NCBI GenBank assembly: GCA_948567375.1
Contig: OX419756.1
Location: forward strand, 70,136,333 to 70,200,332
DNA from: Lunularia cruciata
Taxonomy: Eukaryota > Streptophyta > Marchantiopsida > Lunulariales > Lunulariaceae
Reading direction: 5' to 3'
DNA: 64,000 bases
Shown here piece after piece: positions 1-48,401 of this stretch. Position 1 is the first letter of the stretch. The number at the start of each line of letters is the position of its first letter. Below the pieces are notes generated by a model. That model did no database searches. It saw only the letters and a list, made by a program, of their open reading frames with translations, and was not told the origin of the DNA. The position numbers and the translations under genes are program-made.

Positions 1-272
1 TGGTTTAGATTTTGAATGGAGGATTGAATAAGTATGGTTTGTGGAGACGCCACTTGGGTGATTGAGACCTCCAATTACCTTGGTTGACCATGTGCTATTG
101 GTTCAGCAAGCAAGCCTCTTTAACATCCTTCTCTTCTTACTTTCTACTCTATAGACAAGATCTAAATTTAAATACAGCCATTCATTGCAATGTTATTGTA
201 GTTTTCAACTTAGATGATCCACATGTATGGATGAGTGCATGCTATCATTGAGGATAGATCTTTCCAAGAGTG

Positions 273-605
273 ATGCCAATGGCCTTTGAGAACTTAGCAA
301 TTTCTTAGCATAAGGATACCGTATGCTATGCTACTATTCAAGGAAGAGGTTATAGACCTTTCATCTATTGATTTCATCCAAGTGATTATGTATATCTACA
401 ATAGATTACACCAATGATATTTGATGTGACTATAGGCCACAATATCTTGAAAGTGCATGAGGTTTTGCCTTTTGGAGTCATCATATTAGAAGGATATGAT
501 GATGTTTTTTGGAAGGATCATGTGTACAATTGTGCGCCATGTCATCTTCCAAACATTGATGACACTATGGACCTAAGCTTGGCAATTATAAATGCAAGCT
601 TGTAG
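273..605 (+). pseudogene. Retroelement pol C-terminal domain, decayed (MT-type element, second copy)
   Basis: One continuous frame from the ATG at 273 to the TAG at 603-605, broken by three internal stops. It reads as the region after the integrase core of a plant retroelement polyprotein: a PMAFENLAI start, then SDYVYLQ, then a beta-rich stretch with HNILKVHEVLPFGVIILEG, then NCAPCHLPNIDDTMD. Spaced hydrophobic and basic residues and the closing NCAPCHLP motif are, from memory, typical of the tail of pol proteins in plant retroelements that also carry a methyltransferase. The PHD-like segment follows at once and an LTR-D follows that, so this is the 3' end of an element whose 5' part lies left of the window. 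Family assignment is inference; the open frame and motifs are seen directly. Confidence 0.55.
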
Positions 606-742
606 TGTTTATTATGTGGCTCTTATGGTAGAGTTGTTATTATGTTGGTATGTGATAGCTATTGGGAGGATGTCATATGGTAAGTTTGGCTCCTCTTCTC
701 ATGGTGATTTCTCAAGGACAATTGTTATGTCCTCAATGTACT
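606..742 (+). pseudogene. PHD-finger-like segment at the end of the retroelement polyprotein, frameshifted
   Basis: Immediately after the stop ending the preceding domain, the same frame gives CLLCGS (606-623), then MLVCDSY, and a second frame from about 676 gives SLAPLLMVISQGQ followed by CPQC (728-739). Order and spacing resemble a PHD zinc finger: CxxC, hydrophobic-LLCD-x-C, LxPPL, PxGxWxCPxC. One zinc cysteine appears as Tyr (CDSY for CDSC), the central His is not seen, and one frameshift lies between the halves. PHD fingers bind histone H3 tails; here it would be the C-terminal domain of a retroelement polyprotein. A decayed RING or unrelated zinc ribbon is possible. Confidence 0.45.
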
Positions 743-1389
743 TGACCTATAGCTAGTTCAATCCTTCTATGGTATAGATGGTAAATAGGCTACTAACAAT
801 GAGGCTCAATACGACTTGACCTCTTGATCTTTGCCCACCATAAGGCATATCACATACTTGGAGTAGATTGCTATCTAGAGTTAGAGGAACTTAGGAGGTA
901 ATTGTGACACTTTAGAGTTCATGTGTGACTTTTGCATGAGTTGTGCTTCTATAATGTATGATGTTGACTATGATGTATGTTGTTGTGGTGCCCACATTTT
1001 TTGTTTTTTTTCTATTTATTAGCATTTGAGGGAAGAAGTAAGCACAGAAAGCCGAATTGCAAAAGAAGAATGGACAGAAGTAACTTCGGAGGAAAGCCAA
1101 AGAAGGCAAAATTAGATCCAATGATGGAGGTACTCAGAAGAAGGGTACGATGGGAAAAAAATCCAAAGAGCATCATCTTTGGGTCGAAAGGTGCAGGTGA
1201 TACAAAGACCATCTAAAAACCTTGGTACATGGCAAGAAAGTACACTTCAAGAAACGACAGAGGCAGAAGAAGCATGTCTTGATAGTGACCAGACATCAAC
1301 ACACAGAAGAGAGGAAGTTGAATTTGAAATCGACTAAAGAATGACTGCAATTTGGGGTAATATAAAATTGCGATTGCACAAGAACAAAT

Positions 1390-2736: not shown

Positions 2737-3907
2737 GGGAGCATATGTAGTATTATGTTGTTCAGTATTCAAATTTCTGAAGATAGATAAAGCAAAGTAT
2801 TGTTTCCAATGCTCGTCACTTGAGCTTAATTCCAATTGTCAATTTTGTGTTTGTGTTTGTGAGTGTGTGAAGAATTCCAAAATGCAAGTCAGTGTGTCTG
2901 TGGATGTTGGATTTTGTAGCCTTGATCTTCATTCTGTGTGTTTGATCTTGAGTGAAGTGCATCGGAGCAATGCCTTGACAGATCTGAGAGGAATTATAGT
3001 ATTGGTAGTATTCTGCATTTGTGAGTGCAACACAAAGTTGATGTGAAGCAATTTCAATCGAGGAAGTTGTGCCTTCAGTGGAGGGGTGGAACACAATTCT
3101 GAGGCAAAATTGTTCTTCGTAGTGAAGTGCCATCTTCGGGAGAATTTGAATCATCACAATCAAGAGTTGTTTGGATAAAATTTGCTATATTGTGATTATG
3201 TGTGTGTGTATTCGTGACAAGTTGTCAAGATTGTGAGCTTGTTACTCTCTTCTGGGTGTAGTTTCTACCTGAGAGATTAAAGAAGAAATCATGAAGAACT
3301 ACAAGTTATTTTTTGACTTTGTATTTGACCAATTTTGACTCGTATCTGTGCGTGAACAAACTTTACTTACCCGATTACCGCAAATGTGATATTTGCCAGG
3401 TTGTCAGAGTTGTGTAGCAATGTATATACACAAGATGGCTATTATGACATTTGTAGTGCCAAAGCTAGTTTTCTCATATGTTGGATTGTTAGTCTTGGTA
3501 GTTAGAGTTATACCAATAGTGGCTCAAATACTACTTAATTGCAACTATATTTTATATTAGGGCTATTAATCACACCATTAGAGCCATTATTTGCACCATC
3601 AATTGCACCATCATGTGGGTTATCAATAGCAATGTTAGGGTTGGAGTTCAAGTTCAAGTCTAGAGAGGTCTACCTTTGAAGTGCAACTCCAAAGAGCTCA
3701 CTTCTTTGATGTTGCACCTTTGAGCTCCTAGCTATGGTGGATAGAGGCCAACAAGCATCACCTTGAGTCTCTTAGCTAGAGTGGATGTGGCTTGACTATG
3801 TAATCAAAGCACATGGATGATATTTTATGGATTTGAGAGTTTCATTTATCCATGAGAGTGTGACCACCTTATCGATTTGAATGATATGATTATGATTTAT
3901 TTGATTA

Positions 3908-3995
3908 TTGTGGCACTTTATAGTTCATAGGTGATGTTTGCATAAGTTTTACTTCTATGGTGTATGAGTTTGAGAGCAATGTATGTTGTGTAAGT
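3908..3995 (+). repeat. Second copy of the LTR-D-type start sequence
   Basis: TGTGGCACTTTATAGTTC and the following 80 bases repeat 903-983 plus 3,414-3,430 (the same sequence without the copy A insertion) in direct orientation, with scattered mismatches. It begins just where the LTR-D match breaks off at 3,898. It is probably the start of a second LTR or a tandem duplication junction. Confidence 0.4.
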
Positions 3996-4425
3996 ATGTA
4001 TTTGCGCATGAAAAGGGTTGTGTGGTGTATATTTTTCCAAAAGTTACTTTTTATTTTTTCTCTCTTTTCCACAAGTATATGGTAGGATAATTGCTTTTTC
4101 AAGAAAGAAAACCTCTTAATTTGGAGTTGTGCTTATACATGCAAGGTTAAAAAGGGAACAAGTATGAAGCCAAAAGTATTCTAAAGGAAGAATGTGAAAG
4201 GTATCAGGTTTGAATAATGGTCGGAGGTAAAGAACTCAAGTATGAATGACCTTCAGACCCACAGACCATACAATGAAAGTGCCACCCCCAAGATAAAGAA
4301 TTTCCACCAAAGACTAATGTTGTATGTTGGTTTGCTTAGCAAATGAAAAGGTAATTTAGTGCTATTTATCTCTATAATCTTGGAGAAGATTGTACAACAT
4401 ATCACATGGTTGAGCGGTTGCCATG
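3996..4425. other. Intergenic or repeat DNA, no gene recognised
   Basis: AT-rich sequence between the duplicated LTR-D start and the LTR-B fragment. Only short accidental frames are present, and I see no conserved motif. Confidence 0.5.
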
Positions 4426-5217: not shown

Positions 5218-5937
5218 TGTAACACCCATCTATGCATGTATGTGCTATTGTGATATTCAGTAATATTATAAATATAATATTGATATTATAAACATTTGAG
5301 AGATATTATTTATATAGAGATAAGTATGATTCTACATTAGTCATGAGTAACTAAAGTTAGTCACAACTAAAATAGAGGTAGCTATACTTTGGAGGAAGTG
5401 GAAAAGATGAGCACTACAATTTTGGATTCTAGTGTATTGACTTGGCATTATTCCTAGGTGTTTGGCTTTGAAGAAAGAGTTGAGAACTCTTGGACCCACA
5501 AGCCTTTTTGTTTTGGATTCTTCTATAGTCAAAGGATAGCCCATGTGAGGGAATCCTTGACTTAGTGATTGGGTCAAGATAAGACCACATGCTTAGGAGA
5601 ATATTCCAAGGAGCATGATATTCCTTTAGCCTAGTCCCTTAGCTTTTTGACTTTATTTGACTTTTAGCCTAGTAACTTGAGTTACTCCAATAATTAGTAA
5701 CTTTGATGTGTAACTAGTTCACAAGTATATAAAAAAGGGATGAGGAGGTACTCATCATCCTTTCATTTGCAATCATCTCTCCCTCATTGAGTTCTCTAGT
5801 GAACAATGTCTTGAGCCTTGGAGTGTTAACCTTGGAGAAGTATGATGGAGTTGGGGTTCTTTGCCTTCTTAGCCCATGGTGCACTATCATAATAGCCATC
5901 AAAGGTTCATCCAGAGTGAGAGATAGGCTGGCTCACA
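5218..5937 (+). mobile_element. LTR-C, probable 5' LTR
   Basis: Starts TGTAACACCC and ends GGCTGGCTCACA. It matches the solo LTR-C copies at 18,260-18,948 and 47,714-48,401 along its length. Unlike those, it has no matching flanking duplication (GGAT on the left, TTTT on the right) and is followed by gag-like sequence, so it is read as the 5' LTR of an element with internal DNA to the right. Confidence 0.6.
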
Positions 5938-8960: not shown

Positions 8961-9179
8961 ACACAAAAAATCCCCCAAGACTCATGTGCTCAAGGTAGCA
9001 CTAACTAAATACCTCATGTGACTCTTTGGTTCAAATGCTCTAACTAAAATACTCCCACAAGACTTATTTGCTCAAATGGCACTAAATAACATATTCCCAA
9101 GATTCTAGCACTATAAATGAAGTCTTGAGTTGATGTGTCACAAATTTAAGCTCCAAGTGTCCTGTAACACAAAGAGACT

Positions 9180-9765
9180 CTAGAGTCTAGGTACCATAAA
9201 AGGAAACTCTAGAGCTCACCAAATGGCACCAATGATAACTGTGGATCATTTTCTCGACAACACCATCCAAACCACTCTCTCTACTAAGCCATCTACCTCA
9301 GTGTGATCTTGAGATCTAGTATGATGATCAATCAAAGCCTCATCACACAAGACCTAAAACTCCTCCAAGAACTCTATACCCTAATCAGTCAAACCTCAGT
9401 TGGTGCACCAAAATGACTAAGAACTTGATATAGGAATGAGAAAGCCATCCCTTCACTAGACTTGTCAGGAATTGCCACCAACTCAATCCACTTGGAGAAG
9501 TGCTCCACCATCACCAAAACATACCAATGATGTCTCACAGTCAACGGTAAAGGTCCAATGAAGTCCAAAATCCAATGGTAATCCAATCCCATGATAGGTA
9601 ATGGGTGTAATTGTGGCATAGATAGGTAATCGGTCACAAACCACATATCTGGCAACAAACTATTGTACCTTGGTTTGCATATTGTGCCCCCAATAATGAC
9701 TCAAGAGTAAGCTATATGTACACTTTACTCCAAAATGTCCTAGCTCCTCATGAGCATGATGGACT
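9180..9765 (-). pseudogene. Gypsy G3 integrase, decayed
   Basis: On the minus strand the sequence gives an HHCC-type zinc region (HEELGHFGVK..., YWGH) near 9,690-9,765. The catalytic core runs to about 9,190: WILDFIGPLP with the first Asp (about 9,560), LTD-GIEFL with the second Asp, and HTEVDGLVER with the Glu. FSKWIELVAIPDKSSE between them is typical of Ty3/Gypsy integrases. Integrase inserts the cDNA into the host genome. Stops and frameshifts make it non-functional, and the C-terminus is lost near 9,170. Confidence 0.65.
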
Positions 9766-10249
9766 AACTGTGGTTTCTGAGACGGAAGTGGTACCACTCA
9801 CACTCTACTATCCTCCCATACACGCAAAAGGTGTTTACCCTCCAATCTGAATTGTCAGGCTTGCTGAAGGACACAATCTCTCTCCTTGGCCCCAACTATG
9901 CCACCCACAACACCAATGCAAAGATAGTCCATCACTAAGACATCACCATGGTTGTCTCGCTGAACTATACCAATCTCTTCACTCTTTGGATTTGTGACCT
10001 CAATAACTCCTCTTGTATGCGTTGAAAGAGATACCACCAAAGCCCAAAAAATATACACCAAAAGGCCAATGCATGCTAACATGGCACCATCTCCTCATCT
10101 GTCTCACCATGCCAACATGCTCCGATCTAATCCTACTCGCTAGGACATGGGTTTTTACTCAACCCATCTGCATCACGATTCACCACTCCAGGTCTATGAA
10201 CAACCATGAAATCATACTCTTATAAAAGTAGAGCCCTTTGTGCAAGCTT

Positions 10250-10600
10250 TGCTAAAAGCTTGTCGGACTCCATCAACGACTTCCACGGCTGATGATCAGT
10301 GATGAGAGTGAAGGGGTTACCAAACAGGTAACATCAGAAATGTGCTATTGCCCAAAGTACTACCAAGCACTCTCCCTCATATGAACTATATTTTTCCTCC
10401 GCTGAATTACTGGAGCAACTAGCAGAGGCCACCACAAACTCCTTCCCCTCATCATCATGTTGGGTAAGCACTGCTCCAAGCTCCAACATACTCCAATCAG
10501 TATGAACCTGAAATGGTTTTCCTATGATCGGTCTATTCAAAATAGGAGCAGATGTCAACCTCTCCTTGAGCTCTACAAAAGCTCTCCCCAACACCACTCC
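10250..10600 (-). pseudogene. Gypsy G3 RNase H region, decayed
   Basis: The frame 10,597-10,334 reads FVELKERLTSAPILNRP, then FQVHTDWSMLELGAVLTQHDDEGKEFVVASAS, then SSYEGECLVVLWAIAHF. This is the standard Ty3/Gypsy RT-RNase H linker and RNase H: the HTDWS position corresponds to the catalytic TDAS, and the Y-x3-E-x-E-CLAVVWA motif to the second acidic residue. RNase H removes element RNA from the RNA-DNA hybrid. TDAS to TDWS suggests decay. Confidence 0.65.
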
Positions 10601-10879
10601 TATGTAAGCTTGGTCAGCTTTGTCAAGGCCTTGGTAATGGGACTAAATCCTCTAACATAGTGGCAATAGAAGTTCACCAACCCAAGGAATGCTTGCACTC
10701 TACTCACATCCATAGGTCAAGGAATACGTGCAATAGCCTTCCCCTTGGTCTGCTAAACACCAAGTCCTCCAAGATAGATAGTGTGACCCAATAACTCAAC
10801 CTGCTCATAGAAGAACCTACACTTCCCAAGATGTTTTTTGAGTCCATGAGATCTCAACCTCTCAAACACCTCCAACAAC

Positions 10880-11340
10880 TATCTCTCATGCTCCTCCATA
10901 GTAATGTTATAGACCAAAATGTCATCAATATAGCACCAAGCAAAAGCCAATCTGGCTAGAATCCTATCCATGACCCTCTGGAACTCAACAAGAGCATTCT
11001 TTAATCCAAATAGTAAGAACTGATATAACCTATCCTTTCTATGAGGATCAATAGCCCAAAATGTTGTCTTGGATTTCTCCTTCTCTCTGATCGGCAACTA
11101 ATGATATCCCGCTCAAAGATCTAAAAGTATTGAAGACCTTTGCATGCCCAATTGCATCAAAAATCTCCTTTGATGTAAGCATGGCATACTGATCAGCCTT
11201 GGTCTGTCAATTGATGGGATGGTAATCTCCACACATCCACTTATCTGTGGATGTGTTGCCATGCATATCCTTCTTGGCTAGCATCAATGTTGGTGATGCA
11301 TACTCTCTATGTGAAATCTCCACCAAACCAGCTTCAAAAA
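10880..11340 (-). pseudogene. Gypsy G3 reverse transcriptase, decayed
   Basis: Fragments in several minus-strand frames. An upstream piece gives LAKKDMHGN and MCGDYHPIN (fingers, canonical KKDG...CVDYR-LN). The frame 11,097-10,879 gives YQFLLFGLKNALVEFQRVMDRIL and then WCYIDDILVYN, with the YxDD catalytic box intact (Y-I-D-D). Multiple stops separate the pieces. It is the same element as the integrase and RNase H to its left. Confidence 0.65.
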
Positions 11341-11399
11341 GGTCACCACTCTGGCTCTGAATCAATGTCCTCTCCATATCACTATATCAATAAGGACGT

Positions 11400-12090
11400 C
11401 AGAAAATTGATGTATCTCTAGTCAACTCAACCCAAATACTAGGTCCCTTCAAAGCACCTAAATTCTTCATGCTGAAGGCAAAACATATAGTGTAGCTCCT
11501 CAAGAACCTCCAAACTCTCCATCTTTCTTCTCCAATAAGCTTGGGTCCAAGATCTGGCTCCCAAGTATCCTCCGAACTGTTGCAAGAGTGGAAGAGATAT
11601 TGATTGGTTGTTACATTGGGCCCTTGGGAGCAATAGTGTCATGCTCCTAACCACTAGAGGTCTTAACCTCTGTGTGAAAAACTCCCTCCACTTTAGTTGC
11701 AAGCTCCACACATCCTCTAGCTGCATCCCAAGTGGACCAAGGGTGTAATCCAAGTAGCCCATGCTCACTTGGATGGACTCCAAGTAGACCACTCTCCCTA
11801 GTAGCCATTGGATGCGTCCCAAGAATACACTATCCACTAAGTCCATTGCCCCCAGTATGTGCCTAAATTTTCTTGATAGGCACAAGGCTCACAAGTGTTC
11901 AAGTGGTGATGCCTATCAAGCGCATCTTACATTGCTCTGCCAAGCCAAGGCTCACAATCCAGGTTCCTTCTTTAGCCACTTTGCTCACTTGCTGTTCCAC
12001 CTTCCTTTTGTTGGACCCAACCAGGATACTCCGAATAGGCACTTTGGCTATTGCTTCCTCATCTAGCTCTCTCTGCGTCCGCCTACGGCT
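11400..12090 (-). pseudogene. G3 region between gag and RT, product not recognised
   Basis: A 148-codon minus-strand frame (11,885-11,439) occupies the place of the protease in a Gypsy element, but I do not see a clear DSGA motif. The segment 11,690-11,850 has degenerate short repeats (variants of CCAAGTAG and TTGGA) that inflate the frame. It is best treated as decayed gag-pro sequence. Confidence 0.3.
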
Positions 12091-12149
12091 CACCTAGACA
12101 ATAGCTTCCTCAATCTTTCCCCACTCAACTGCTCCCAAGCGATCAGGTT

Positions 12150-12740
12150 GGAGCAGATCAAGCGCATATTCCTACTCATCCCGCAAATGACTATTTGCTG
12201 CCCATAGAAAATAGTTAGACCGCTGCAACTTAATAGCTTTGGCTTCACAAGTTGAGAACTATCTTAGCCTCCTATTGAATTCTCTTAGGAGATCCTGTGG
12301 CCCCAATCTCTTGCTCCTATTGTTCACCTAGTCCAAGAACATGGCTTGGGTGACCCAATCGCATCTTGTAATAGGAATTCTTCTTTCATCATCCGCGAGA
12401 ATTCCCCCCATGATGCAGTCTCTTCCACTAAACCCTCAACCACCTTCCTGATTTTGATCTCCACCAACTTAGGGAACCTCACAATGGCAACCTCCTCATC
12501 AAGACCATGAAGCTTAACCTCTCTCTAGTAGACCTTTAGGTACTTGGTCACGTCCTTACCGTTGAACTCCCCTTGCTGGTTTACCACAATTTGTAGGCAC
12601 TTCGTGATTTGTGAAGACTGCGCCTTCACCCTATCTCTTTCCTCATCCTGATCCTTCATGGCTCCCATGGTTGCCATGACAATCAGCGAGATCTCTTGTT
12701 CCCTTGTCATAGCTACAGATGAGGTCTTTGGCCCCATCTC
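12150..12740 (-). pseudogene. Gypsy G3 gag, decayed
   Basis: The minus-strand frame from 12,737 reads MGPKTSSVAM..., then a coiled, charged stretch, then GEFNGKDVTKYLKVY. In frame beyond the stop it gives EEVAIVRFPKLVEIKIRK and ASWGEFSRMMKEEF. F-x-GKDVTxYL and W-x-x-F-x-x-x-MKEEF fit the plant Gypsy gag domain. It lies just inside LTR-E with a leader of about 130 bp. Confidence 0.5.
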
Positions 12741-12845
12741 TACCGCAGCTCAACCAACTACTATCCACTTAGATCAGTCCAATCTGTCCTTGTTTCCTTC
12801 CCCAACCCCAACTAGTCCTAACATCTGAGCACAAGCCTCAAGATT

Positions 12846-12862
12846 CCCCAGCATGGTTGCCA
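12846..12862 (-). other. Candidate primer-binding site of G3
   Basis: On the minus strand TGGCAACCATGCTGGGG begins four bases after the LTR-E end (...GCGACA). A 3' end starting with TGG is what a tRNA primer site needs, but I cannot name the tRNA with confidence. Confidence 0.35.
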
Positions 12863-12866
12863 CTTA

Positions 12867-15264
12867 TGTCGCGGGGATTGTAAGGTCTTGAGATTGCGCA
12901 GGGCACCTGGCTGCATGTGCTTAGGCTATCTTGTTTGTCATGGACTCGGCAGTTCTTCCGTAGTCTGGCACTGGTTCTCTTCTCTGGATTTATGACAAGA
13001 GCTTCTCTTGGGAGATTGTCTGTCGCTATTCCGGGTGCTGATCCTCATCAATGAATATTTGCATAGGCTTTAGGTTAAATTTTCTTGCTTGTTCTTTGGC
13101 TACTATTCCTGATCTGTCATTCCAAACTCTTTTCTTAGTCTATCATTCTTAGGTGGGTGGGGTTTTTGCTATGACAGTCAGGCTTGGCCCAAAGCACAGA
13201 CTTGGTGGGATTTGAGGACCAGTCCATAGGTCATGCAACCAATTCTACCTCAGGATTTTGTCCAAAGATCATGCAAGGATGAAAGGCCATTCATTCACAA
13301 GGAATGTCACTTCCATCACCACACCGCATTCTCCAAATTTCATAAATTCTTCATGATGATCAAAACTCAGACTGAATAGTTTGCATCAAGCACATTGTCT
13401 AATCAAGCATATACAGAACAGGAAACATTCGGGTCCTAACTCCTATCCCTTACAGTGTTTAGCTTCATGTCTGCAGGTCTCTCCCCAAGATTGTTGTTTG
13501 GCAGATCTCCTTTGGTGATTCTCCCCTCTTGTCACTACAAATTTGTACTGTTGTCACCTCTGGCATTTCTCTCCTCACTCTCTGGCCATGCTCAGCCAAA
13601 AGATTTCTTTTGAAACTTCCTTCCTCTCTTGTCACCTCCTCAGCAGAGTAACTCCAAACCTTCACTCCAATTCCTCTCACTACTCAGGGAAAAACCCTTC
13701 AAAAATCTCCTTTTATCTCTCATTGCTCAGAGCAAAAGCCCTTGAAGATCCTCTTCTCTCCTCAGCAGGCCAACTCTCCAAACTTAACTCTAGTCCTGTC
13801 TTTTCTCTGTGAAATTCAACTCCTTCAGCCAAGTCCCATAAGGCTTTACACTTGAGGAAAATATCCTTGCCCTTGTACTATCAAAACCCTACAATCCCTT
13901 CATGAGGACACCTTCCTTGTCCACTGCCACCTCAACTCACTTGAAAAATTCCTGCACAGCCTTGCTTCCCTCTCCCACTGTCCAGCCCAAAGCACTTCTA
14001 AATTTCTCTTCTCCTGCACACCCTACCTTTTTTCAAAAATTCCTGCACAGTCCTGCTTTCCTCTCATTGTCCTACACAAAAGCACCTCAAAAATTTCCCC
14101 TCTCCTGCACACCCTATCTCAATTCAAAAATTCCTGCACATTCCTGCTTTCCTCTCCCACTGTCCTACACAAGAGCACTTTGAAAATTTCCCCTCTCTTG
14201 CACACCCTATCTCAATTCAAAAATTCTTGCACAGCCTTGCTTCCCTCTCCCACTGTCCAGCCCAAAGCACTTCTAAATTTCTCTTCTCTTGCACACCTTA
14301 TCTCAATTCAAGAATTCCTTCACAGTCTTGCTTCCCTCTCCCATTGTACAGCCCAGAGCACTTCTAAATTTCTTTTCTTGTGAACACACTATCTCACTTT
14401 GAAAATTCCTGCACAGCTCTGCTTTCCTCTCCCACTGTCCAGCCAAAGCAATTCAAAAATTATCCCTCTCCTGCACACCCTATCTCAATTTGAAAATTCA
14501 TGTACATTCTTGTTTTCCTCTCTGACTATTCTGCCCAAGTGCAATTCAAAAATTCACCTTTCTGGCCTTCACAATCTCAAGCCATACTTGCCTGCAAAAA
14601 TTTTCCTTCTGATGTTCACAATCTCAAGCCATACCTATCAAAATCCTCTCTTACACTGCACCTCAAGGCATACTTGCAAAATTCTTCTCTCATAGCATTT
14701 TCTCTCCAAGTTCCTTCCTTTCCAGCCACAAGATCTCCAACTTGAAATCCTCCTTACTGCCCTTTGTCGTCAACCAGGCAACTCCCGAAACCTTTCTCCT
14801 CAGTTCCTGTCCAGGCCAACCTTGCTAACTCAAAAATCTCATTGTTGCCCTCTGTCCTCAGCCAGACAACTCCCGAAACCTTTCTCCTCTGTTCCTGGCC
14901 AGGCAAAAAAAACAAACCTCTCCTCCCCAGCTAAGTTCCTTCACTATCCTCTCTCATTTTTCTGTTGTTATTCCACAAACCGTTCACTGTCAAAACTCCT
15001 CTAAAGCTTCCCAAAGTATTTCTACCTCAAAAGACTCTTTTTTGCTCCTCCATTGAGGAAAATACTCTTCACTCAAATAACATATAACAAAACCTGAGCT
15101 TGTGTAACCCATTATTTCTTGGCTCAAGCCACATTAAAAGACTCCTCGAGCTAATAACACCATAATTTTTTCTGGGCTTCACAATAATATAGGAAATATC
15201 TCCCATAGCAAAGTAGCATAAAACCACACTCGAGACATATTGACATAAATCCATGTTCCTTACA
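12867..15264 (-). mobile_element. LTR-E, 5' LTR of Gypsy G3
   Basis: On the + strand it runs from TGTCGCGGGG to CCTTACA (TG...CA), adjacent to the G3 primer site and gag. Its length is about 2.4 kb. Beyond it at 15,265 the MT element sequence resumes, so G3 appears to have inserted into the MT element. The matching 3' LTR is not found on the left side and seems lost. The right boundary is inferred from the CA end and the change in content. Confidence 0.5.
13945..14575. repeat. Tandem repeat inside LTR-E, about 91-bp unit, seven copies
   Basis: Units start at about 13,945, 14,037, 14,129, 14,219, 14,310, 14,401 and 14,493. Each has AAATTCCTGCACA, a CTTCCCTCTCCCACTGTCC run, an AGCACTTCTAAATTTC-like run and CTCCTGCACACCCTATCTCA. 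The last copy is degenerate. The open frames here are translations of the repeat, not genes. Confidence 0.8.
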
Positions 15265-15349
15265 ACAACAAGAAGAGAAAAAGGAAATTTATCACACCAA
15301 AAGCTTCAAGGGTACACGTGGGCTATTTTCACGATGAAACCGACCTAAC

Positions 15350-16330
15350 ACTTGATGCCTTGGATGCCTCTAACACTACTGAAACATTGGTAATACCGGT
15401 GCAAAAACCCATCACCCGCTCTTTCTCATTAGCAATGGGCTCCACCAACTACTGTAATTGTGAGTTCCAAACAAGTCCAAGTCCTCCCTCTCAAAAAGCA
15501 TGAGAGCCTGGGAAACTCATGAGTGTGGGAAATGCGGCTCTAGGCTATCCAACTAGGTTCACCACTGCCAGAGGTGACCTATCAACCACTACCATTGTCT
15601 AAGACTAACGCCCAACATCCAAGATGTCATCAACAAGGATGTGGTCAAGTCATTGAATCCGTGCACTCCATAAGCACATTGTAAAACCTCTCTGGGTAAG
15701 AGGTTCATCCACCAAAGACAAAGATGATGAGCCCGTGATCCTACTCTAGCTGCATCTAACAATACAATAGGTCCCATCCAAAAATGGACTTGACGTGTAC
15801 TTGCCACCACTCGAGTACAAGAATCACCCATCAAAGGAACATTCTCCAAAATGTAAGCTAGAGAAACGTATTGATGAACTTGGAGATGTCATAGTTTTTG
15901 TAACATCTCCCAAAACACACCTGAACAAGGATCTTGAAGACCCAAACTTTGGCCAACACGTGTATGTCCTTGACATGGCCATCTAGAAATCACCAAATGA
16001 ATAGGCCCATGTCTCTCCAAATCATGCACCCCCAGTAAGGAAATGTCTATTGGTAGGGCCTTTTGGTAACCTCTGACTGTTGACATTGGTAATAACTCAA
16101 GATACCTGGTAGGCCAAGGGTGCCACATGATGTAGAGAGAGAGATTCACCTAGCAATCTCATCTCTCTCCACATACAAGTATCTTTGTACTTGTATACCC
16201 ACCTGTAATACTACAGCTAGTCCGGTGCTAATCCCAACAAAGACCTCCAATAGACATACTCTCTCTACTAGATACTACCAAGCAATGAGTGTGGTGTTGA
16301 GAGGTGTCAAAGTAATTGACTCTAGAGGCT
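15350..16330 (-). pseudogene. Retroelement-encoded C5 cytosine DNA methyltransferase domain, decayed
   Basis: A minus-strand frame of about 240 codons gives C5-methyltransferase motifs in the right order. Motif I is LLEVFVGISTGL (Phe-x-Gly-x-x-x-Gly SAM loop, 16,227-16,244). Motif II is YLYVERDEIA. A motif-III-like IDISLLG follows. Motif IV is WPCQGH (15,970-15,978 codes PCQ; catalytic Cys codon 15,973-15,975), then GLQDPCSGVFWEML. Motif VI is YILENVP (ENV at 15,838-15,846). Motif VIII is VGSRAHHLCLWWMNL. After one frameshift near 15,600, FPTLMSFPGSHAF, then LVEPIANEKERVMGF, resembles the C-terminal motif IX-X region. Such enzymes transfer a methyl group from SAM to C5 of cytosine. Only two stops (both TGA) interrupt motifs I-VIII. 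It lies directly after the retropepsin of the same minus-strand element. This is not a plant MET1, CMT or DRM fragment by context: no BAH or chromo domain adjoins it. Confidence 0.8.
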
Positions 16331-16654
16331 CATCCTCACACTCATCTCTTGATTGTATGAAGGCTCTACTCCAAGCTTGTTGCACCAACTAATCTGCATG
16401 TTGCCGCAATGCCTCCTTTGAACTCCATAATAGAACATCCAAGGTGGATGGAACAATCCCACTCATACTCCAAATCCAAGTGATGTTTTTTGGTATTGGA
16501 GTATCTCTTACATGGGCGTTCCACTCCAACAAGTCACCAGGCCAAGTAATTGCATCATTGAAAGCTGAAACTGATGTTGCCATAGTCCCGGACTATAGTG
16601 AGCCAAGACTACCACTATTGAAGCATATTGGTAGGCAACATACCGTCTCTCACC

Positions 16655-17260
16655 AAACTACCAACCTGGTCTATAGGAGGTTATCTCCTCCCAATAGTCA
16701 ATGCTAAAACCCATGGGATATAACATTGCTCTTCCAACTAGCACATTGTATGACTCAACTATTGTTGCAGTAGCTTGAGCTCTCACCACCAAGCTATCAG
16801 TCGGATGACCGGGCTGAAGCTGAACAACTAGCTCTCCATGTGTGATGTACTGTGTCAAACCACCACCTAAAGATGTATGGATCTGAAATGGACACCTCTC
16901 CACATCAGTCTTCCGTAACCCCAGATTGACTACTATAGCCTTTCCCAACATAAGGGGCTACGCACTAGAGTCTAACAAGACTCTTTGTGGTGTATGAACC
17001 TTCCCTAAAGGTCCCACCAAATGGAAAATCCCCCTCAAGTTATCCAATAGGACAATGTCAAGTGTGAACCGTGCTCTCTCAAAGGCTGGTCTAGTTGGCC
17101 GGTCCCTAAACTCCTCCAGTCTAGCCACTATTGCTTGCCATAAACCACTAGTCACTAAACGGATCCCATGCTCCTCAACCAAGTCAGCTCCACTATCAAC
17201 CACCTCTGCTCTAGTAGTAGGAACCGTATCATCCCTACACTCACAAAGTGTGGTAGCCAA
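16655..17260 (-). pseudogene. Retropepsin-like aspartic protease of the MT element
   Basis: On the minus strand VLLDSSA (active-site Asp at 16,970-16,972; D-S-S-A for D-S/T-G-A) is followed by a TAG, then PLMLGKAIVVNLGL. Then come YNVLVGRAMLYPMGFSIDYWEE and YRPGW. D-x-G-A with a downstream hydrophobic-LG-R motif is the retropepsin layout. The frame 17,260-16,958 precedes it in phase. The protease would cut the gag-pol polyprotein. CAG to TAG (Gln to stop) in AQPLMLGKA fits cytosine deamination. It lies between gag and the methyltransferase. Confidence 0.6.
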
Positions 17261-17869
17261 CCGGAAGGTTGGTCAACTCCCAATGTAAACATGTCACTGG
17301 TTGAAGAAAAAGGGCACCGCATAATCAGCTTAGCCACCCCCAACATCGTGCTCGACTCAGTTTGTGTAGTAGTAGGTAGCTGACTAGCAAGTAATCTATC
17401 ATGTACTCCATCTCCACCTACCACACCTACATTGGGATGTCTAGGAGCCATGGATGTTGTCTACAATGCCTTAGAGAGTATGAAAGACTTGGGAAGTCTA
17501 ACTTGTCTCCCATTTTTCTTCTCTATGGGTCCAACTCCATTGATGCTCCTCTAGGCTTTGGAGCAAGTACTGCACTCCTGGTCACCGCTGCAGATGCATC
17601 CACTTGTGCTGCTCCGCACATGAAGTCCAAAGCATCTCCATCACCAGCATATGAGGTGGAAGCCTTAGCATCCAAATCTGATCTCCTCTAAGCAATGGCC
17701 ATACTAGTCAATCTTTGCTCCAACTGCTCAATCCGAGTAGCCATAGTTGTACCAAAAGTAAGGGCAGGTATTGCACCTCTACAAGGAGTAGATCCTCTAC
17801 TACCTTGTCCTCCATGAATTGGAGATCCTTTCTACTACCTGCCATAGCAGCCCTACCACTCCGTAACTT

Positions 17870-18080
17870 GGGGTGTAGGTCAAAGCACCAATCACTAGTG
17901 TGACCAAATCTATGACAATGCTCACACTACCTCTTTGATGGCTGTGATGCACCAAAAGTATCAAGTCCACTACCCTGAGTACACTCTCTCCTATGAGGTC
18001 CACCACAAGTCCAACAAGCAACACCACTACTCACTAGTTGCTACTGACCCAAAAATGAAGGTAAGGGTCTAACTATAGTA
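17870..18080 (-). pseudogene. Tandem zinc knuckles of the MT element gag
   Basis: The minus-strand sequence at 17,885-17,926 encodes CEHCHRFGHTSDWC, a perfect C-x2-C-x4-H-x4-C knuckle. About 40 codons upstream (near 18,000) CWTCGGPHRREC forms a second, shorter C-x2-C-x3-H-x3-C cluster. These bind nucleic acid in the nucleocapsid part of Gag and show that this minus-strand unit is a retroelement rather than a host gene. Confidence 0.75.
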
Positions 18081-18259: not shown

Positions 18260-18948
18260 TGTAATACCCATTTGTACATGTGTGTGGTATTGTGATATTT
18301 AGCTTGGTATTACAAGTACTTGAGAGATATTATTTATAGAGATAAAGGATGGTTCTACATTAGTTATGATTAGCTAAAGTTAGTCATAGCTAAGATAGAG
18401 TGGACCTTACTTTAGAGGAAGTAGAAAAGATGAGCACCACAATTTTGGATTCTAGTGTGTTGACTTGGTATTATTCTTAGGTGTTTGGCTTTGAGGAAAG
18501 AGTTGAGAACTCTTAGACCCACAAGCCTTTTTGTTTTGGATTCTTCTATAGTCCAAGGATAGCCCATGTGAAGGAATCCTTGACTTAGTGGTTGGGTCAA
18601 GATAAGATCACATGTTAGTGGAATATGCCCATGTGAATGGATATTCCTTTCTACTTTTTGACTTTACTTGACTTTTAGTCTAGTAACTTGAGTTACTATG
18701 GTAATTAGTAACTTTGGTACGTAACTATTTCACAAGTATATAAACAAGCGGTGAGGAAGTACTCATCATCCTTTCATTTGCAACTATCTCTCTCTCATTG
18801 AGTTCTCTAGTGAGCAATGTCTTGAGTCTTGGAGTGTTAGCCTTGGAGGAGTATGATGGATTTGGGGTTCCTTGCCTTGTTAGTCCATGGTGTGCTACCA
18901 TAATAGCCATCAGAGGTTCATCTTGAGTGAGAGAAAGGCTAGCTCACA
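18260..18948 (+). mobile_element. Solo LTR-C inside the MT element gag
   Basis: Starts TGTAATACCC and ends GCTAGCTCACA; flanked by a 4-bp direct duplication AACC (18,256-18,259 and 18,949-18,952). The minus-strand gag frame continues across it, so the insertion is younger than the MT element. It has no internal region. Counting five bases (AAACC) would also fit if the LTR ended CTCAC. Confidence 0.75.
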
Positions 18949-20114: not shown

Positions 20115-21415
20115 AGTCGGGGCACCTCACACAAACGTGGTGCACAATCAGGAAGCAAAGAATTGAGGGGGTCTAATCACAAGAAATCTAAAAAAAACCC
20201 TCCATCTCATAAAGCAAAATAGGACTGACTCTACCACCATATGGCATTTGACATAAGAGAAGTTTGTATTTGCGTCCTAAGCTACCAAGATCACCTAGAA
20301 TGGGATCAAATTGCCTTTCCTCGCCAAAGCTACAACTTTATAGATAATAGTGGCATAGTCACTAGGACAACAAGTGAGGGTGGACCAGTTGGCTAGGACA
20401 CCAGTCTAGGAACAAGACATCTAGGGATCAAACCCTGTTGCGCACAATCTAGCCGGATGGGGAGATTTTGCCAAACAATGACCATGATGTACTCTAAACT
20501 AGCTAGTCTCCCACCAACAAGTTGGCCCTTCTAGCCCTTTGTAGCTTCTCATAGCCCACAGCTCTATGCCTAAAAGCTAAATGAGGCCTTTCTTCTTGCC
20601 ACTTTGAACCCTCTCCAAATCTGGCAAAACTCTTCCAAACTTGCAAAACTCCTCCAAATCTGACAAAACTCCTCCAAACTTGCTAACCTCCTCCAAATCT
20701 GGCCAAAATCTGACATAAACCCTAAATTTGGTTGACCGTCAAATCCTCCACTAACTCTTCACTCAAGCCAAATTGAAAAAACAGGTTTTTCCAAATCACA
20801 AATTCACAAGAATAGGTTCCCAACTTCACCTTCAATTTTACTTTATGAGCCTAACTCGCAACAAATCATTCCTACTTTCACCTCTTGAGCTCAAAATCAC
20901 AACCACTGCTAAAAAATTGCTTCTTCTTTGCTCAAAAATTGGCCATCACTTCTGCACACCGTCTGCCTTATTGCCATATCTACATCAAGCAACAAGCAAC
21001 AAGCTTTTGCACACCAAGGAAAAATTGAACATCAATCAAGCTACCAATGATCCATCGAGCTTGGAGATACCACCAACACTAAGTTTATGCACCCAAATTC
21101 CCTCTGACTTCACTTCTCTAATGTAATCAGATTGTTTACAACTCTCAAATTAACTCAACTCAAATTAGTACTTGATTTATCACTCTATAAATTGCCAACA
21201 ACTGGGCACTGATTACAATCAAGCCAAACCCACTCTAGCTAAAAGAATTCAGGTGATGCTCATGACCCTCTGTCCACCATACCCAGGAACTCGAAGGTTC
21301 AACATCAAAGAAGTGAACTCTTTGGAGCTGCACTTCAAAAGTTTACCCTTGGACTTGAGCTAGATCTGAAACCCTAATGGTCTTGCTGATGGCACACTTG
21401 ATGGTGTGAACGGTG
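20115..21415 (-). mobile_element. LTR-D, 5' LTR of the MT element
   Basis: Matches 49,904-51,560 in the same orientation and 3,430-3,898 in reverse: CCCTCCATCTCA...ACTCTACCACCAT-TGGCATTTGACAT near 20,190, and CATCAAAGAAGTGAACTCTTTGGAG near 21,305. It lies upstream of gag on the minus strand, the position of a 5' LTR. It contains short CCAAATCTGGCAAAACTC-type tandem repeats at 20,600-20,720. The exact ends are uncertain. Confidence 0.55.
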
Positions 21416-21650
21416 CAAAGTGACAGTAGGCCCCACTATAAAGTCAGTACCCCAAACACAAAATCTGATCGCCACAAAGTCTTTTACGGGAGGCGGAACA
21501 CTTCTTTGTTTAGGCTTGGGAATGATCTTATATACCATGGTGCGCCCGGAGATACATCGTACGACAAGAGGAGCTATCCACTCTTTTTTGTGCCATTCAG
21601 GCTAGCTCATAAGCTAGTAGTCTATAGGAACTGCTAAAATACCTCTAACT
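21416..21650. other. Short segment of different composition, origin unknown
   Basis: This 230-bp block between LTR-D and the LTR-A remnant is less AT-rich than its surroundings and has open + strand frames of 61 and 74 codons. It does not match the other LTR copies I compared. It may be filler DNA or an organelle-derived piece. No gene is recognised. Confidence 0.35.
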
Positions 21651-22046
21651 CCTATCACTACCAGAGTCCGAGTAATCTAGATGGGACACTATAAAATGGT
21701 GTGAGAAGGAAGGTGTACCTTTAGTGGAGAGGTGGAACACAATTTGGAGGTGACATTTTTTCAAATTGAAGTAGCCTTCTTCAGAAGAGTTTGAATCATC
21801 ACAATCGCAATTTGTTTGGAAAGAATTGGAAGTATTGTGATTATGAGTGTTAATTTGTGACGAGACTGTGATCAATGCTTGTTACTCTCTTCTAGGTGTG
21901 GTTTCTACTTGAGAGACTAAAGAAGAACTCAAGAAGAGCTAAAGTATTACTATTTACTTCATATCACACCATTTTTGACATATCTTTGTGGGAGCAAAAT
22001 GTTACTTATTGATTAGCACAAAAGTGATACTTATCTGATTGTCATA
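21651..22046 (+). mobile_element. LTR-A 3' portion, remnant 5' LTR of Gypsy G1
   Basis: Matches the last 400 bases of LTR-A copies A-D in order: GTGGAACACAATT, GAATCATCACAATC, CTTGTTACTCTCTTCT, GTGGTTTCTAC, and the end GATTGTCATA (GGTTGTCACA in the others). The gag of G1 begins directly after it, the position expected for a 5' LTR. This ties the LTR-A family to G1. The 5' part of the LTR is missing. Confidence 0.65.
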
Positions 22047-26560: not shown

Positions 26561-27545
26561 CAAAGACCAGAAGTTGTTGATAGTGAGTTCAATGAAGGTT
26601 CCCCACCTCATGGAAAAAGCATTTTAGAAGACAAAGATGAATCCAAAGCTTCATTGTCTTCATCTTTTGAAGACTTGGATCAAGAAGTCCAAGTAAAGTA
26701 TTTGGAATGGTATGAGGTAGAGGTCAAAGGCAAAGATCCCTATGACATTGCCTTGGATGAAAATGATTTGGAGGAAGGGTGTTTCACCTCCTTAGGACTT
26801 GGGTTGAGCCGACTTAGTCATGTTGAAGGAGTCATCAACCCTGATGATTGTCAGGATGTTGTCTTGTCCAAAGGTAAAATTTTGAAATTTTCAAAGATAG
26901 TCACTTTAGATGAGTTGACAGGATACACCGCCTTTTTATTGAGTACCAAGATGCATTCACCTTGTCAATCAAATGATAGGAATTCCTAGACAATTTGGGG
27001 AACATCAAATTGATCTTGTTGAACGTGTAGTTTTGGTTTGGCAAAGACAATATCACTTGAACCCAAAGTACTTGCTCTTGGTGAAAGATAAGATTGACAA
27101 GTACTTGGAGGCCAAGATAATTTTTACAATCTTGAGCAATGAATGGGTTTCTCTTATTGTCATTGTTCCAAAGAAGAAGACGGGGAAGATTTGAGTGTGC
27201 CAAGACTTTAGCAAGTTGAATGCATCTACAAGAAAGGATCATCATCCTTTGCCCTTCATAGATACTATGTTGGACCAAGTAGTTAGTCATCCCTGCTATA
27301 ATTTTCTTGATGGATTTTTAGGCTATAATCAAGCATCCATTTGAGAAGAAGACAAAGATAAAATCACATTCACTACCAATTAGGGCACCTTTGCCTACAA
27401 TCAAATGCCCTTTGGTTTTTGTAATGATCTCGCTACATTCTAGCGGATGATGAATGCACTTTTTAAAGGTTTCCTGCAAAAATTTGTAAAAGTCTTCATT
27501 GATGACATTTTTGTATTGGGGCAAAGAGAAGTACATTTGGGTTAC
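26561..27545 (+). pseudogene. Gypsy G1 reverse transcriptase, N-terminal and catalytic part
   Basis: After an acidic linker (26,654-26,960) the frame gives HLNPKYLLLVKDKIDKYLEA and IVPKKKTGKI, then VCQDFSKLNASTRKDHHPLP. NFLDGFLGYNQ (canonical LDxxSGYxQ), FAYNQMPFGFCN and MMNALFKGFLQKFVKVFIDD follow. The FIDD box (near 27,500) is intact. It stops at VHLG, where copy C is inserted (TSD GTTAC). The rest of pol resumes at 31,322. Premature stops occur. Confidence 0.75.
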
Positions 27546-31321: not shown

Positions 31322-32325
31322 CTTTGCCAAGCTTTTGAAAGGTGTCATTTTTCCAGCTTGTCATTATACCCAGAGAAATGCTTCTTTGCAATGAAGGAAG
31401 GGCTTCTTTTGTGTCATTGGGTCTTAAGCCAAGGTATTGAAGTGAATGTCAAGAAGGTGAAAGTGATCTTAGCTTTGGATCCCTTAAACACATTTGGGAG
31501 TTGAGGGCCTTCTTGGGACATGTCAAATATTATAGATGCTTTGTATCAAATTATGTGGTGCTTACACCACTAACAAAGCTTCCAAAGAAGTTTGAAGACT
31601 ATTTGTGAGAAGCATAACAAGAAGAAGCTTTTAAAGTGTTGAAGAGGAAATTGGTTGAAGCACCAATTATGAGGACCCCAAATTGGGATGTCTCTTTTCA
31701 TGTGTATGTGGAAATTTTGTCCATGGCAATTAGATTAGTCTAGAGTTAGAAGGACAAGAAGAAGGACAACTATCCAATTTACTATGCTAGTTGACAACTT
31801 TCAATCACAAAAAAGAATTGTTTGACAACTTAAAGAAAAGCACTTGGAATGGTGTATGCTTGCAAGAAGTTTTGCCACTAATTTTTGGGATACAAGTTTG
31901 TCTTTTATGTGAACCATTATGCTTTGCAGTATTTGGTAAAGAAGGCAAATTTGTTTGGGCAAATTGCAAGATTAATCTTGTTGTTGCAAGAATTCATGTA
32001 CACTATAAAAGTAAGGAAAGGAGCTTTGCATCCAAATGCAGACTTCCTATCCAAGTTAGAAACTCAAGCCCAAGACTTGGAAGTCAATGATCAGTTTCCT
32101 AACAAAGAGTTATATCATTTGATAGCAATGAAAAGTACAAGGTATGTGGCTAAATATCATTACCTGCATATTTGCATGTGTCTTGAGGGCCTAGACCCAG
32201 AGCAAAGAATAGTCTTCCTCAAGAAAATGGGACCGTACCAACTAAAACACAATATTTTATTTAAAATGGGCAAAGACAATACTTTGGAGATGCCTAGAGA
32301 CATACAAAGTTGGAAGAGTAATTGA
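31322..32325 (+). pseudogene. Gypsy G1 RT thumb/connection and RNase H, decayed
   Basis: Pol resumes after copy C: SLYPEKCFFAMKEGLLLCH (canonical KC-F), LDPLNT, a PI-RTPNWD-like stretch, FHVYVEI at the TDAS position, and PIYYASXQLS. MVYACKK, GYKFVFYVNHYALQYLVKKA, GQIARLILLLQEFMYTIKV, then HPNADFLSKL close the RNase H. These are standard plant Gypsy RNase H landmarks. Multiple frameshifts; only the last 146 codons (31,885-32,325) are continuous. Confidence 0.7.
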
Positions 32326-33250
32326 GTCCTTACACTTGGAAGCATTGAGAGGACACTATGTCATGAAGAATACTATAAAGAAAATTCTTTCATCAAGGTA
32401 TTGGTGGCCTACAATGTACAAGGATAGTCAAGCCCATATCTAAATTTTTTATGCTTGTCAAAGAACATGAAAGCCAATGGCTACTTCCCAATGGCTTTTG
32501 AGACCAATTGTGCCATTGGCTCCATTTGAGAAGTGCGGAATTGATTTTGTGGATCCAAATCAACCAATGGCTTGATTCACAAGGAAAGAGTACATCTTGG
32601 TTTTCATTGATTATGCCACCAAGATGGTTGAAGTCGAGGCAACTCAGAGAGATGATGCAGAAACTATTGCAAAAATTTTCTTCCGCAACATCATTTCACA
32701 TTATGGATGTCCTTTGGAATCGGTCATTGACCAAGGGACTCATCTTTTGAACTCACTTGTGGAGTCATTAACCAAGAGCTTCCAAATCAAACATTGGAAG
32801 ATGATGCCTTATAACCCAAAGGCCAATGGATTAATGGAGAAAGCAAATGGATTGTTGTGCAAAATTTTGAATACAATGATTGTTAATTATGCCTATGATT
32901 GGGATATGAAGTTACTAGCCATATTGTGGGCATATAGAACCACCAAAAATATTACAAATAGAAAAACTCCATATTTCTTGACATACAGATTGCATCCCAT
33001 CCTACTAGTTGAATTTGAAGTACTGTCATATTGGATCCTTTGTGAGGAACAATTGTTGGAGGAAGAAAGTCAAGATCTTTGGATCCATCAACTAATGTGG
33101 TAAGAAGAGAAATGAGATGATGAAATGCAAACCATAAACAAAATACAAGATCAATGGAAAGTAAGGCATGATAAGAGAATAAAGTTTGCTCTTGTTTAAG
33201 AAGGAGATTTGGTTTTTTATATGACAATCTCCAAATAGTTTTTCCAGGCA
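32326..33250 (+). pseudogene. Gypsy G1 integrase, decayed
   Basis: Zinc-binding region: ALRGHYVMKN and RYWWPTMYKD, then an FYACQRT-like piece. Catalytic core: CGIDFVDP (first Asp), ILVFIDYATKMVEVEATQRD, SVIDQGTHLLNS (second Asp) and PYNPKANGLMEKANG (Glu). It continues with WDMKLLAILWAYRTTKNITN and KTPYFLTYRLHPILL. The D-D-E triad is present; stops and shifts lie upstream and downstream. Continuous frame 32,597-33,103. Confidence 0.75.
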
Positions 33251-47651: not shown

Positions 47652-47713
47652 GAATAATACCAAATAGAACTATGCCAAGTGAAGGTAGAACTCATAATGA
47701 TGAAGGTTGGTAC

Positions 47714-48401
47714 TGTAACACCCATTTGTGCATGTATGTGTTATTGTGATATTTAGTTTGGTATTATAAGTATTTGAGAGATATTATTTATATAGAGATA
47801 AAGGATAGTTTTACATTAGTCATTATTAGCTAAAGTTAGTCATAGTTAAGATAAAAGGACCTTACTTTAGAGGAAGTGGAAAAGATGAGCACCATTATTT
47901 TGGATTCTAATGTGTTGACTTGGTATTATTCTTAGATGTTTGGCTTTGAGGAAAGAGTTGAGAACTCCTGGACTCACAAGCCTTTTTGTTTCGGATTCTT
48001 CTATAGTCCAAGGACAGCCCATGTGAAGGAATCCTTGACTTAGTGGTTGGGTCAAGATAAGACCATATGCTTAGAAGAATATTCCCATGAGTATGGATAT
48101 TCCTTTATCTTTTTAAATTTATTTGACTTTTAGCCTAGTAACTTGAGTTACTATAGTAATTAGTAACTTTGGTGTGCAATTATTTCAAAAGTTCATAAAT
48201 TAGGGGTGAGGAGGTACTCATCATCCTTTCATTTGCAACTATCTCTCTCATTGAGTTCTCTAGTGAGCAAGGGTTTGAGTCTTGGAGTGTTAGCCTTGGA
48301 GTAGTATGATAGAGTTGTAGTTCTTTGCCTTCTTAGTCCATGGTGCACTACCATAATAGCCATCATAGATTCATTTTGAGTGAGAGATAGGCTGGCTCAT
48401 A
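47714..48401 (+). mobile_element. Solo LTR-C
   Basis: TGTAACACCC to GCTGGCTCATA, with a 4-bp duplication GTAC (47,710-47,713 and 48,402-48,405). Nearly colinear with 18,260-18,948. No internal region. Confidence 0.8.

Follow-up and report, generated by a model that had tools for sequence, protein, structure and literature searches.

The 64,000-nucleotide stretch of Lunularia cruciata DNA analysed here (the window, C2:70136333-70200332) contains an old, broken copy of an abundant and recently mobile family of Ty3/gypsy-type retroelements that carry a C5 cytosine methyltransferase (MTase), predicted to be of the DNMT3 class. The preliminary description of the window had proposed a retroelement bearing its own C5 MTase, and this is borne out by copies elsewhere in the genome (566 Mb in 74 contigs were searched), in which gag, protease, MTase, reverse transcriptase (RT), and integrase form one unit.

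In the window copy, the MTase motifs lie on the minus strand in conserved order and, on rereading, at the positions where they had been described: motif I (VFVGISTGL) at 16244-16218, motif IV (WPCQGH) at 15981-15964, motif VI (ENVP) at 15846-15835, motif VIII (SRAHHLCLWW) at 15738-15709, and a distal block (ERVMGFCTG) from 15421. When the translation is read, they are spread over three frames with stops, and the copy is dead, as was recognized from the start. Comparison with the genomic copy L013 and with a profile of relatives delimits a frameshifted pseudogene for a DNMT3-class C5 MTase, with motifs I-IX and the start of X, at 15342..16259 (minus strand). On the same strand, frame reading recovers the protease motif VLLDSSA at 16981-16961, inside a protease region at 16643..17272 that matches amino acids 448-654 of L013 ORF1 at 79%, and the two CCHC zinc knuckles of gag at approximately 17886..18016, both of which had also been noticed; 18265-17831 gives a 79% match to ORF1 of L013. 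The degraded left terminal repeat, A1, occupies approximately 21124..21706 (minus strand, 74-83% identical to the corresponding A repeat in copy L011), with a start-like motif at position 21706. Within gag, at 18260..18948 on the minus strand, is a nested solo LTR of an unrelated family, with TG..CA ends and a 4-bp duplication, GGTT. It is probably the “LTR-D” that the preliminary description, giving no coordinates, assigned to the element, and which is equated here with the repeat that immediately precedes the zinc knuckles; that assignment does not stand. The family of this solo LTR is about 690 bp long and recurs in the window at 47713-48399 and at 5218-5937.

The rest of the window copy has been dispersed. 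A 3.4-kb insertion in motif X of the MTase (11965..15341, unstranded) is evident as a gap between blast pieces with the four copies tried, and inside it, at 13936-14559, a 91-bp unit is repeated in tandem 6.8 times. The end of ORF1 after the MTase follows at 11614..11964 (minus strand, by comparison with L013), the MTase/RT junction has TAA CAA CCA as its stop and the two codons after it, and RT and RNase H are at 10049..11575 (minus strand, 76-80% to L013 ORF2; RVT_1 and RNaseH Pfam matches are found in intact copies), followed by the first part of the integrase at 9261..10040 (minus strand, 58% to L013 ORF2 amino acids 530-794). It is because the insertion cuts motif X that RT and this part of the integrase, at 11575-9261, lie away from the MTase. 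An inversion has moved the end of the integrase, the PHD finger, and the right end to 12-983 and 3409-4011 on the plus strand: the last part of the integrase, inverted relative to the remainder, is at 12..605 (65% to L013 ORF2 from amino acid 794), a degraded PHD finger at 606..742 (matching L013 ORF2 amino acids 992-1037), a cut B1 repeat at 901..983 (86% to the B repeat of L011), and a B1-A2-B2 right-end remnant at 3409..4011 (68.6% to positions 9008-9591 of the L011 element), split from position 983 by other sequence. The copy is therefore broken in three ways, by the solo LTR in gag, the insertion in motif X, and the inversion. Its A1 and the A2 remnant are only 78% identical over 201 columns, from which it follows that it is much older than the copies whose repeats were measured.

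A profile search of the genome contigs gave 123 scored MTase matches among 2161 candidates, on eight contigs. Inspection of 27 distinct matched places assigned 23 to the MTase-gypsy family (two loci, L006 and L023, being one copy that was counted once) and four to host genes, which are two multi-exon DNMT3 genes (L001 and L004), a DRM with rearranged halves (L002), and a CMT exon (L003); these names come from motif reading, that of L001 as DNMT3 being backed by a further comparison. Twenty stretches of 8-10 kb were fetched around copies picked for long open frames, and 18 of them contain gag, protease, MTase, RT, RNase H, integrase, and a PHD finger in this order on one strand, so the proposed linkage of the MTase to gag and protease in one unit holds in these 18. 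No gag is present within the fetched stretch at L015 and L017, at L015 because the stretch begins late. The complete element, of about 9.6 kb, has the layout A1-[gag, zinc knuckles, protease, MTase]-UAG-CAG-[RT, RNase H, integrase, PHD]-B1-A2-B2, where ORF1 terminates with the MTase and ORF2 continues in the same frame beyond a single stop. Both ORF2 proteins scanned match the Pfam families RVT_1, RT_RNaseH, H2C2, and rve in that order, and the protease, which is without a Pfam match, was recognized by its motif alone. The succession of protease, RT, RNase H, and a gypsy-type DDE integrase is that of Ty3/gypsy elements. The PHD finger (PF00628) at the C-terminal end of the integrase was detected in both ORF2 proteins (E=6e-11 and 7e-10), and the nearest solved fingers are those of CHD4, PHF12, KMT2D, MLL3, KDM5, PHF21A, and ATXR5, among which the fingers of CHD4, PHF21A, KDM5, and ATXR5 are readers of histone H3 unmodified at K4.

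The assignment of the enzyme depends on intact copies. With PF00145, the window copy alone scores below the cut-off (E=0.22, 11 bits, in one of three frames), so that the Pfam search proposed in the preliminary description is too weak there to decide, but the three ORF1 proteins scanned from intact copies all exceed the curated cut-off (E=1.5e-7 to 3.4e-7). A profile of 13 family and related MTases, searched against PDB, finds DNMT3A at E=2e-24; the bit scores are 82-89 for DNMT3A, 70-84 for DNMT3B/3C, 39-45 for DRM, up to 37 for HaeIII, up to 36 for HhaI, and up to 32 for DNMT2, and no DNMT1 or CMT chain is among the 58 PDB chains matched. In the customary nomenclature of C5-methyltransferase motifs, motifs I, IV (PCQ), VI (ENV), VIII, and IX/X stand in the unrearranged order of the class. 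The enzyme therefore appears nearer to DNMT3 than to DNMT1, CMT, DRM, DNMT2, or bacterial enzymes, a ranking that, relative to DNMT1, CMT, and DNMT2, rests on the PDB profile scores, the trees having been built without those three classes. Residues Cys107, Gln108, Glu150, Asn151, and Arg192 are invariant in all 13 rows of an alignment whose members are 36-72% identical to the first row. Among the 23 distinct copies, WPCQG is found in 22, ENV in 23 (ENVP in 22), AHRLR in 21, and LFGGISTG in 16, the catalytic motifs thus being retained in 21-22 of 23.

The abundance of the family can be judged from the MTase/RT junction: a pattern in which the stop codon was left free occurs at 1087 places in the genome, and in the 100 of these that were listed the codon is TAG in 95, TAA in 3, TTG in 1, and GAG in 1. 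Exact starts of the A repeat number 3342, with none for the reversed control. UAG is followed by CAG in all 23 distinct copies and by the full CARYYA in 22, and UAG-CARYYA is, according to passages of PMC5382211, the signal for type I readthrough in plant viruses. By its sequence, then, the stop between MTase and RT sits in a leaky context, although recent common descent alone could account for retention of the UAG.

The terminal repeats are not plain LTRs, as the preliminary description had assumed, but are split in the arrangement A-ORFs-B-A-B. A repeat of about 450 bp (A) opens the element, and the right end consists of B (about 106 bp), GC, A, and B, so the identical complete LTR at both ends that typifies Ty3/gypsy elements is not present: there is A only on the left and B-A-B on the right. 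What rules out plain LTRs is that, at 17 of the 18 loci where the right end of A could be read, the second A repeat is followed by a conserved block of about 106 bp; the exception is L027. The element starts with TGTC and ends with GACA, ends of the TG..CA type, and among 16 copies examined, a perfect 4-bp target duplication flanks 11 of the 14 in which both ends were seen (chance about 1e-24). Both ends but no duplication were seen at L013, L020, and L021, and the fetched flanks lack the left end at L016 and the true right end at L023. The combination of split repeats with target duplications indicates that a DDE integrase inserts an element with a DIRS-like repeat layout. The copy at L021 (C7:16616600-16626599, with L035) has the most similar repeats yet no target duplication, and its last B repeat contains a small internal duplication; it is possibly a recombination product.

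The family is real and recently mobile. Divergence between A1 and A2, measurable in 14 of the 20 fetched copies, ranges from K=0.0026 (L021) to 0.0815 (L013), and the younger copies predicted from the dead one therefore do exist. In the 14 repeat pairs, deamination per site amounts to 0.113 at CG, 0.058 at CHG, and 0.015 at CHH, and transitions are thus about 8-fold (CG) and 4-fold (CHG) more frequent than at CHH. Nine fetched copies have a CpG observed/expected ratio of 0.43-0.47, compared with 0.20 for the copy in the window and 0.34 for the remaining window sequence. Taken together, the transitions and CpG ratios indicate germ-line methylation of the copies, with a CG/CHG pattern that host enzymes could produce alone. 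The approximately 4-fold faster change of CHG than CHH sites in A1/A2 pairs (14 loci among L009-L028) suggests, for its part, that CHG sites of the family are methylated in the germ line of this host.

Constraint on the coding regions was assessed by a binomial test against the neutral spectrum of the repeat pairs, under which the MTase should have N/S of 2.59, with copies covering <85% of a domain omitted from the counts. For the MTase, polymorphisms shared by at least two of the 23 distinct copies have N/S of 37/33 (p=0.0005) and singletons 64/40 (p=0.0125). For RT, the values are 18/18 (p=0.011) for shared polymorphisms and 42/23 (p=0.23) for singletons; protease has 11/15 for shared polymorphisms (p=0.007), gag 13/12 (p=0.056), RNase H 5/7 (p=0.054), and PHD 3/2 (p=0.22). 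No constraint is seen in the shared polymorphisms of the integrase (17/7, p=0.51), which is stop-free in 8 of 20 copies and may be supplied in trans by a few copies. It should be noted that part of the MTase signal may reflect ascertainment, because copies were chosen for open MTase frames (11 of the 23 distinct copies are stop-free in this region and 12 contain a stop), and that the polymorphic sites are not independent, because the copies share ancestry. The deep conservation of the catalytic residues is a firmer sign of constraint than this polymorphism test.

Relatives are widespread in the green lineage. A protein search with the MTase region returned 50 proteins, including those of Calypogeia fissa and Marchantia polymorpha with up to 72% identity, together with proteins of Sphagnum fallax, Closterium, and metagenomes; a Closterium query returned 23, with additional Closterium and Haematococcus lacustris proteins; and an integrase-PHD query, with 8000 candidates scored, returned at least 330, the 120 listed including proteins of Riccia sorocarpa, Volvox, and Haematococcus, most with a PHD finger. 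The named relatives are thus from liverworts, which have the nearest named enzymes, a moss, and green algae, which does not agree with the seed-plant setting considered at the outset. One relative, P0074 (EukProt), has RT, RNase H, integrase, and PHD and is 67% identical to the family ORF2; its Trinity name marks a transcript origin, and a relative therefore seems to be transcribed. Among 191 proteins examined there are two layouts, one with the MTase before RT, in liverworts, Closterium, and others, and a second with the order RT-RNase H-MTase-integrase, of which 23 are complete with PHD.

In the MTase tree, from which nine named proteins whose domains were fused or truncated, and proteins with <270 profile positions, were omitted, 80 retroelement enzymes, among them those of liverworts, Closterium, Haematococcus, and metagenomes, form one clade (SH-aLRT 98), within which layout two is a single clade (100). 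The 27 retroelement rows of a second tree, which used 33 of 87 rows and left out DRM, again form one clade (100/98), and host and animal DNMT3, including DNMT3A, group together outside the retroelement enzymes. Nesting the latter with plant DNMT3 alone is 13 log units worse (AU p=0.076), which neither establishes nor rejects that placement. Layout two is also one clade (100) in the RT tree, where it includes four rows that have no MTase in the RNase H-integrase gap. MTase and RT distances of 30 elements are correlated (Mantel r=0.50, 0 of 2000 shuffles as high), with values of 0.75 within layout one (8/2000, n=7) and 0.27 within layout two (31/2000, n=23). These trees and distances support a history in which the MTase would have been captured once and passed on by shared descent, with one relocation in pol and some losses. 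The direction of the relocation, as read from nodes with 81-86 bootstrap, would be from the gag side, and the data are compatible with repeated exchange of MTases within layout two. For the source of the enzyme, the databases offer apparently no close phage or bacterial candidate: tblastn against phage gave 430 records, all below 60% identity and two covering 80% of the query; plasmids gave 31 records, none covering 80%, and no match in a DNA search; and 44 relatives in IMG/VR are 25-46% identical, one (L065) over most of the domain. The three phage rows do not fall into a single group in the 33-row MTase tree.

The kind of element is already known from Klebsormidium nitens, in which a DNMT3 lies in a gypsy-type element with DIRS-like repeats (KnitGypsy-Dnmt3; de Mendoza 2018, PMC5890265). 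The Lunularia family fits the published description of a DNMT3 in a gypsy polyprotein with such repeats, and shares with KnitGypsy-Dnmt3 the DNMT3-class enzyme, the unrearranged motifs, and the gypsy pol domains. It differs in its liverwort-type host, its 1087 junction places, its PHD finger, its leaky UAG, and its 4-bp duplications. Its MTase clade is common to liverworts, a moss, Closterium, and chlorophytes, KnitGypsy-Dnmt3 having been compared by description only, and no Klebsormidium-named protein is among the matches listed for the MTase, Closterium, and integrase-PHD queries. In the same report the K. nitens lineage is taken to have acquired its DNMT3 independently, and the main text contains neither the word Marchantia nor PHD. 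The land-plant host, the abundance, the youth of copies, the PHD finger, the leaky stop, the target duplications, and the clade spanning green lineages are absent from the available portions of PMC5890265 and msaf176, and no report of an MTase-gypsy family in bryophytes or chlorophytes is among the matches listed from the accessible part of the open-licence PMC literature. The Symbiodinium elements SymbioDIRS-Dnmt3 and SymbioLINE-Dnmt are likewise retroelements encoding a C5 methyltransferase, with two domain orders within pol, as in the relatives of the Lunularia family (PMC5890265), but SymbioDIRS has a tyrosine recombinase and SymbioLINE is a LINE, whereas the Lunularia family has a DDE integrase and target duplications. 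As described there, the Symbiodinium DIRS-type DNMTs methylated CG de novo and the authors propose methylation of cDNA, whereas the SymbioLINE enzyme gave no DNA methylation in yeast (PMC5890265).

No tyrosine recombinase is among the Pfam hits of the two ORF2 proteins, in which rve is present, so the family does not belong with the DIRS elements. DIRS/PAT elements, such as kangaroo of Volvox, have split direct repeats in the order A-ORFs-B-A-B; the Lunularia family shares these but combines them with a DDE integrase and target duplication. Chromoviruses are gypsy elements that carry a chromodomain, a chromatin reader, at the C-terminal end of the integrase. The Lunularia family resembles them in having a chromatin-reader module at this location but has a PHD finger instead, in addition to the MTase, and as no Chromo domain was found in the Pfam scan of the two ORF2 proteins, it is not a chromovirus.

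The best explanation of these features, to which we give a probability of roughly 0.6, is that the Gag-side MTase is packaged and premethylates the cDNA and that the PHD finger guides integration to silent chromatin. Most ribosomes would stop at the UAG and produce Gag-protease-MTase in the amounts of a structural protein, while the few that read through would add RT, integrase, and PHD. Because it is made as Gag-protease-MTase, the MTase would be packed with the genome RNA, and within the particle or preintegration complex it could then methylate cytosines of the newly made cDNA, likely in CG; the PHD finger would steer or anchor integration in silent chromatin. A copy premethylated and placed in this way would have a low cost to the host, would not be sensed as foreign naked DNA, and would be unable to disrupt active genes. 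The internal B-A junction could serve as a template for joined ends during copying of the repeats, as has been proposed for DIRS. More tentatively, and at somewhat less than even odds, the family may belong to a single ancient green retroelement lineage that unites a DNA-methylation writer and a chromatin reader with a hybrid DIRS-repeat/DDE mode, the writer having been captured once, kept in chlorophytes, zygnematophytes, mosses, and liverworts, and relocated a single time, from the gag side into the gap between RNase H and integrase, with premethylation of new copies as a self-silencing strategy.

An action of the MTase on the host, in which it alters chromatin methylation or competes with DNMT3 or DRM and so eases silencing of the element, is unlikely. 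The genome does contain a system with which to interfere (DNMT3 at two loci, DRM, and CMT), and 1087 junction places could supply the dose, but encoding of the MTase together with gag and protease in a single ORF suggests the particle, not host chromatin, as its site of action, and the plant-like CG/CHG deamination of the repeats means that silencing marks are not absent. We consider it equally unlikely that the domain is kept for a nonmethylating role, such as nucleic-acid binding or base flipping, or for DNMT2-like methylation of RNA. Its similarity to DNMT2 is weak, as it is to other C5 enzymes (up to 32 bits), and the authors of PMC5890265 bring up RNA methylation in connection with the LINE element; however, binding alone would not require invariance of the Cys, Gln, Glu-Asn, and motif VIII Arg in 13 diverse rows, and the catalytic motifs are retained in most family copies.

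That the MTase is a functionless passenger, captured by accident in one burst in the Lunularia genome and hitchhiking on gag and pol, is very improbable. The stops in 12 of 23 MTase regions would agree with it, as would the four rows of the layout-two RT clade that lost the MTase without losing mobility, but Marchantia and Calypogeia proteins have the same domain ahead of RT, with identities of 71-72% in the best rows, and homologous domains occur in Closterium, Haematococcus, and Volvox proteins; the single retroelement clade (100/98) and the constraint on shared polymorphisms of the MTase also argue against it. Chance adjacency of a host DNMT gene to gag and protease can hardly be entertained, as the MTase lies inside one unit in 18 of 20 copies, 11 of the 14 two-ended units are flanked by a target duplication, and the host DNMT3 genes are multi-exon and located elsewhere.

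In the preferred reading, a mobile element may write the very mark that plants use for silencing. The question of why a mobile element should encode the enzyme that silences it dates back to the 2018 report on algal hosts (PMC5890265), and the occurrence of the family in a liverwort and of its relatives in Marchantia polymorpha, a genetic model in which methylomes, mutants, and particle assays are feasible, makes this puzzle testable. The PHD finger and the leaky stop lead to separable predictions on the destination and the amount of the MTase, and a clade spanning green lineages would turn isolated captures into one long-lived strategy. The family may also bear on liverwort genome size, the L. 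cruciata genome being estimated as 581 Mb by k-mers and gypsy bursts being held to explain its large size (PMC9985172). Other gypsy RT and integrase fragments are found in the window at 43139-41980, 31322-33004, 27036-27515, and 37877-37026; they are about 27-36% identical to ORF2 of the MTase element and therefore represent other gypsy families.
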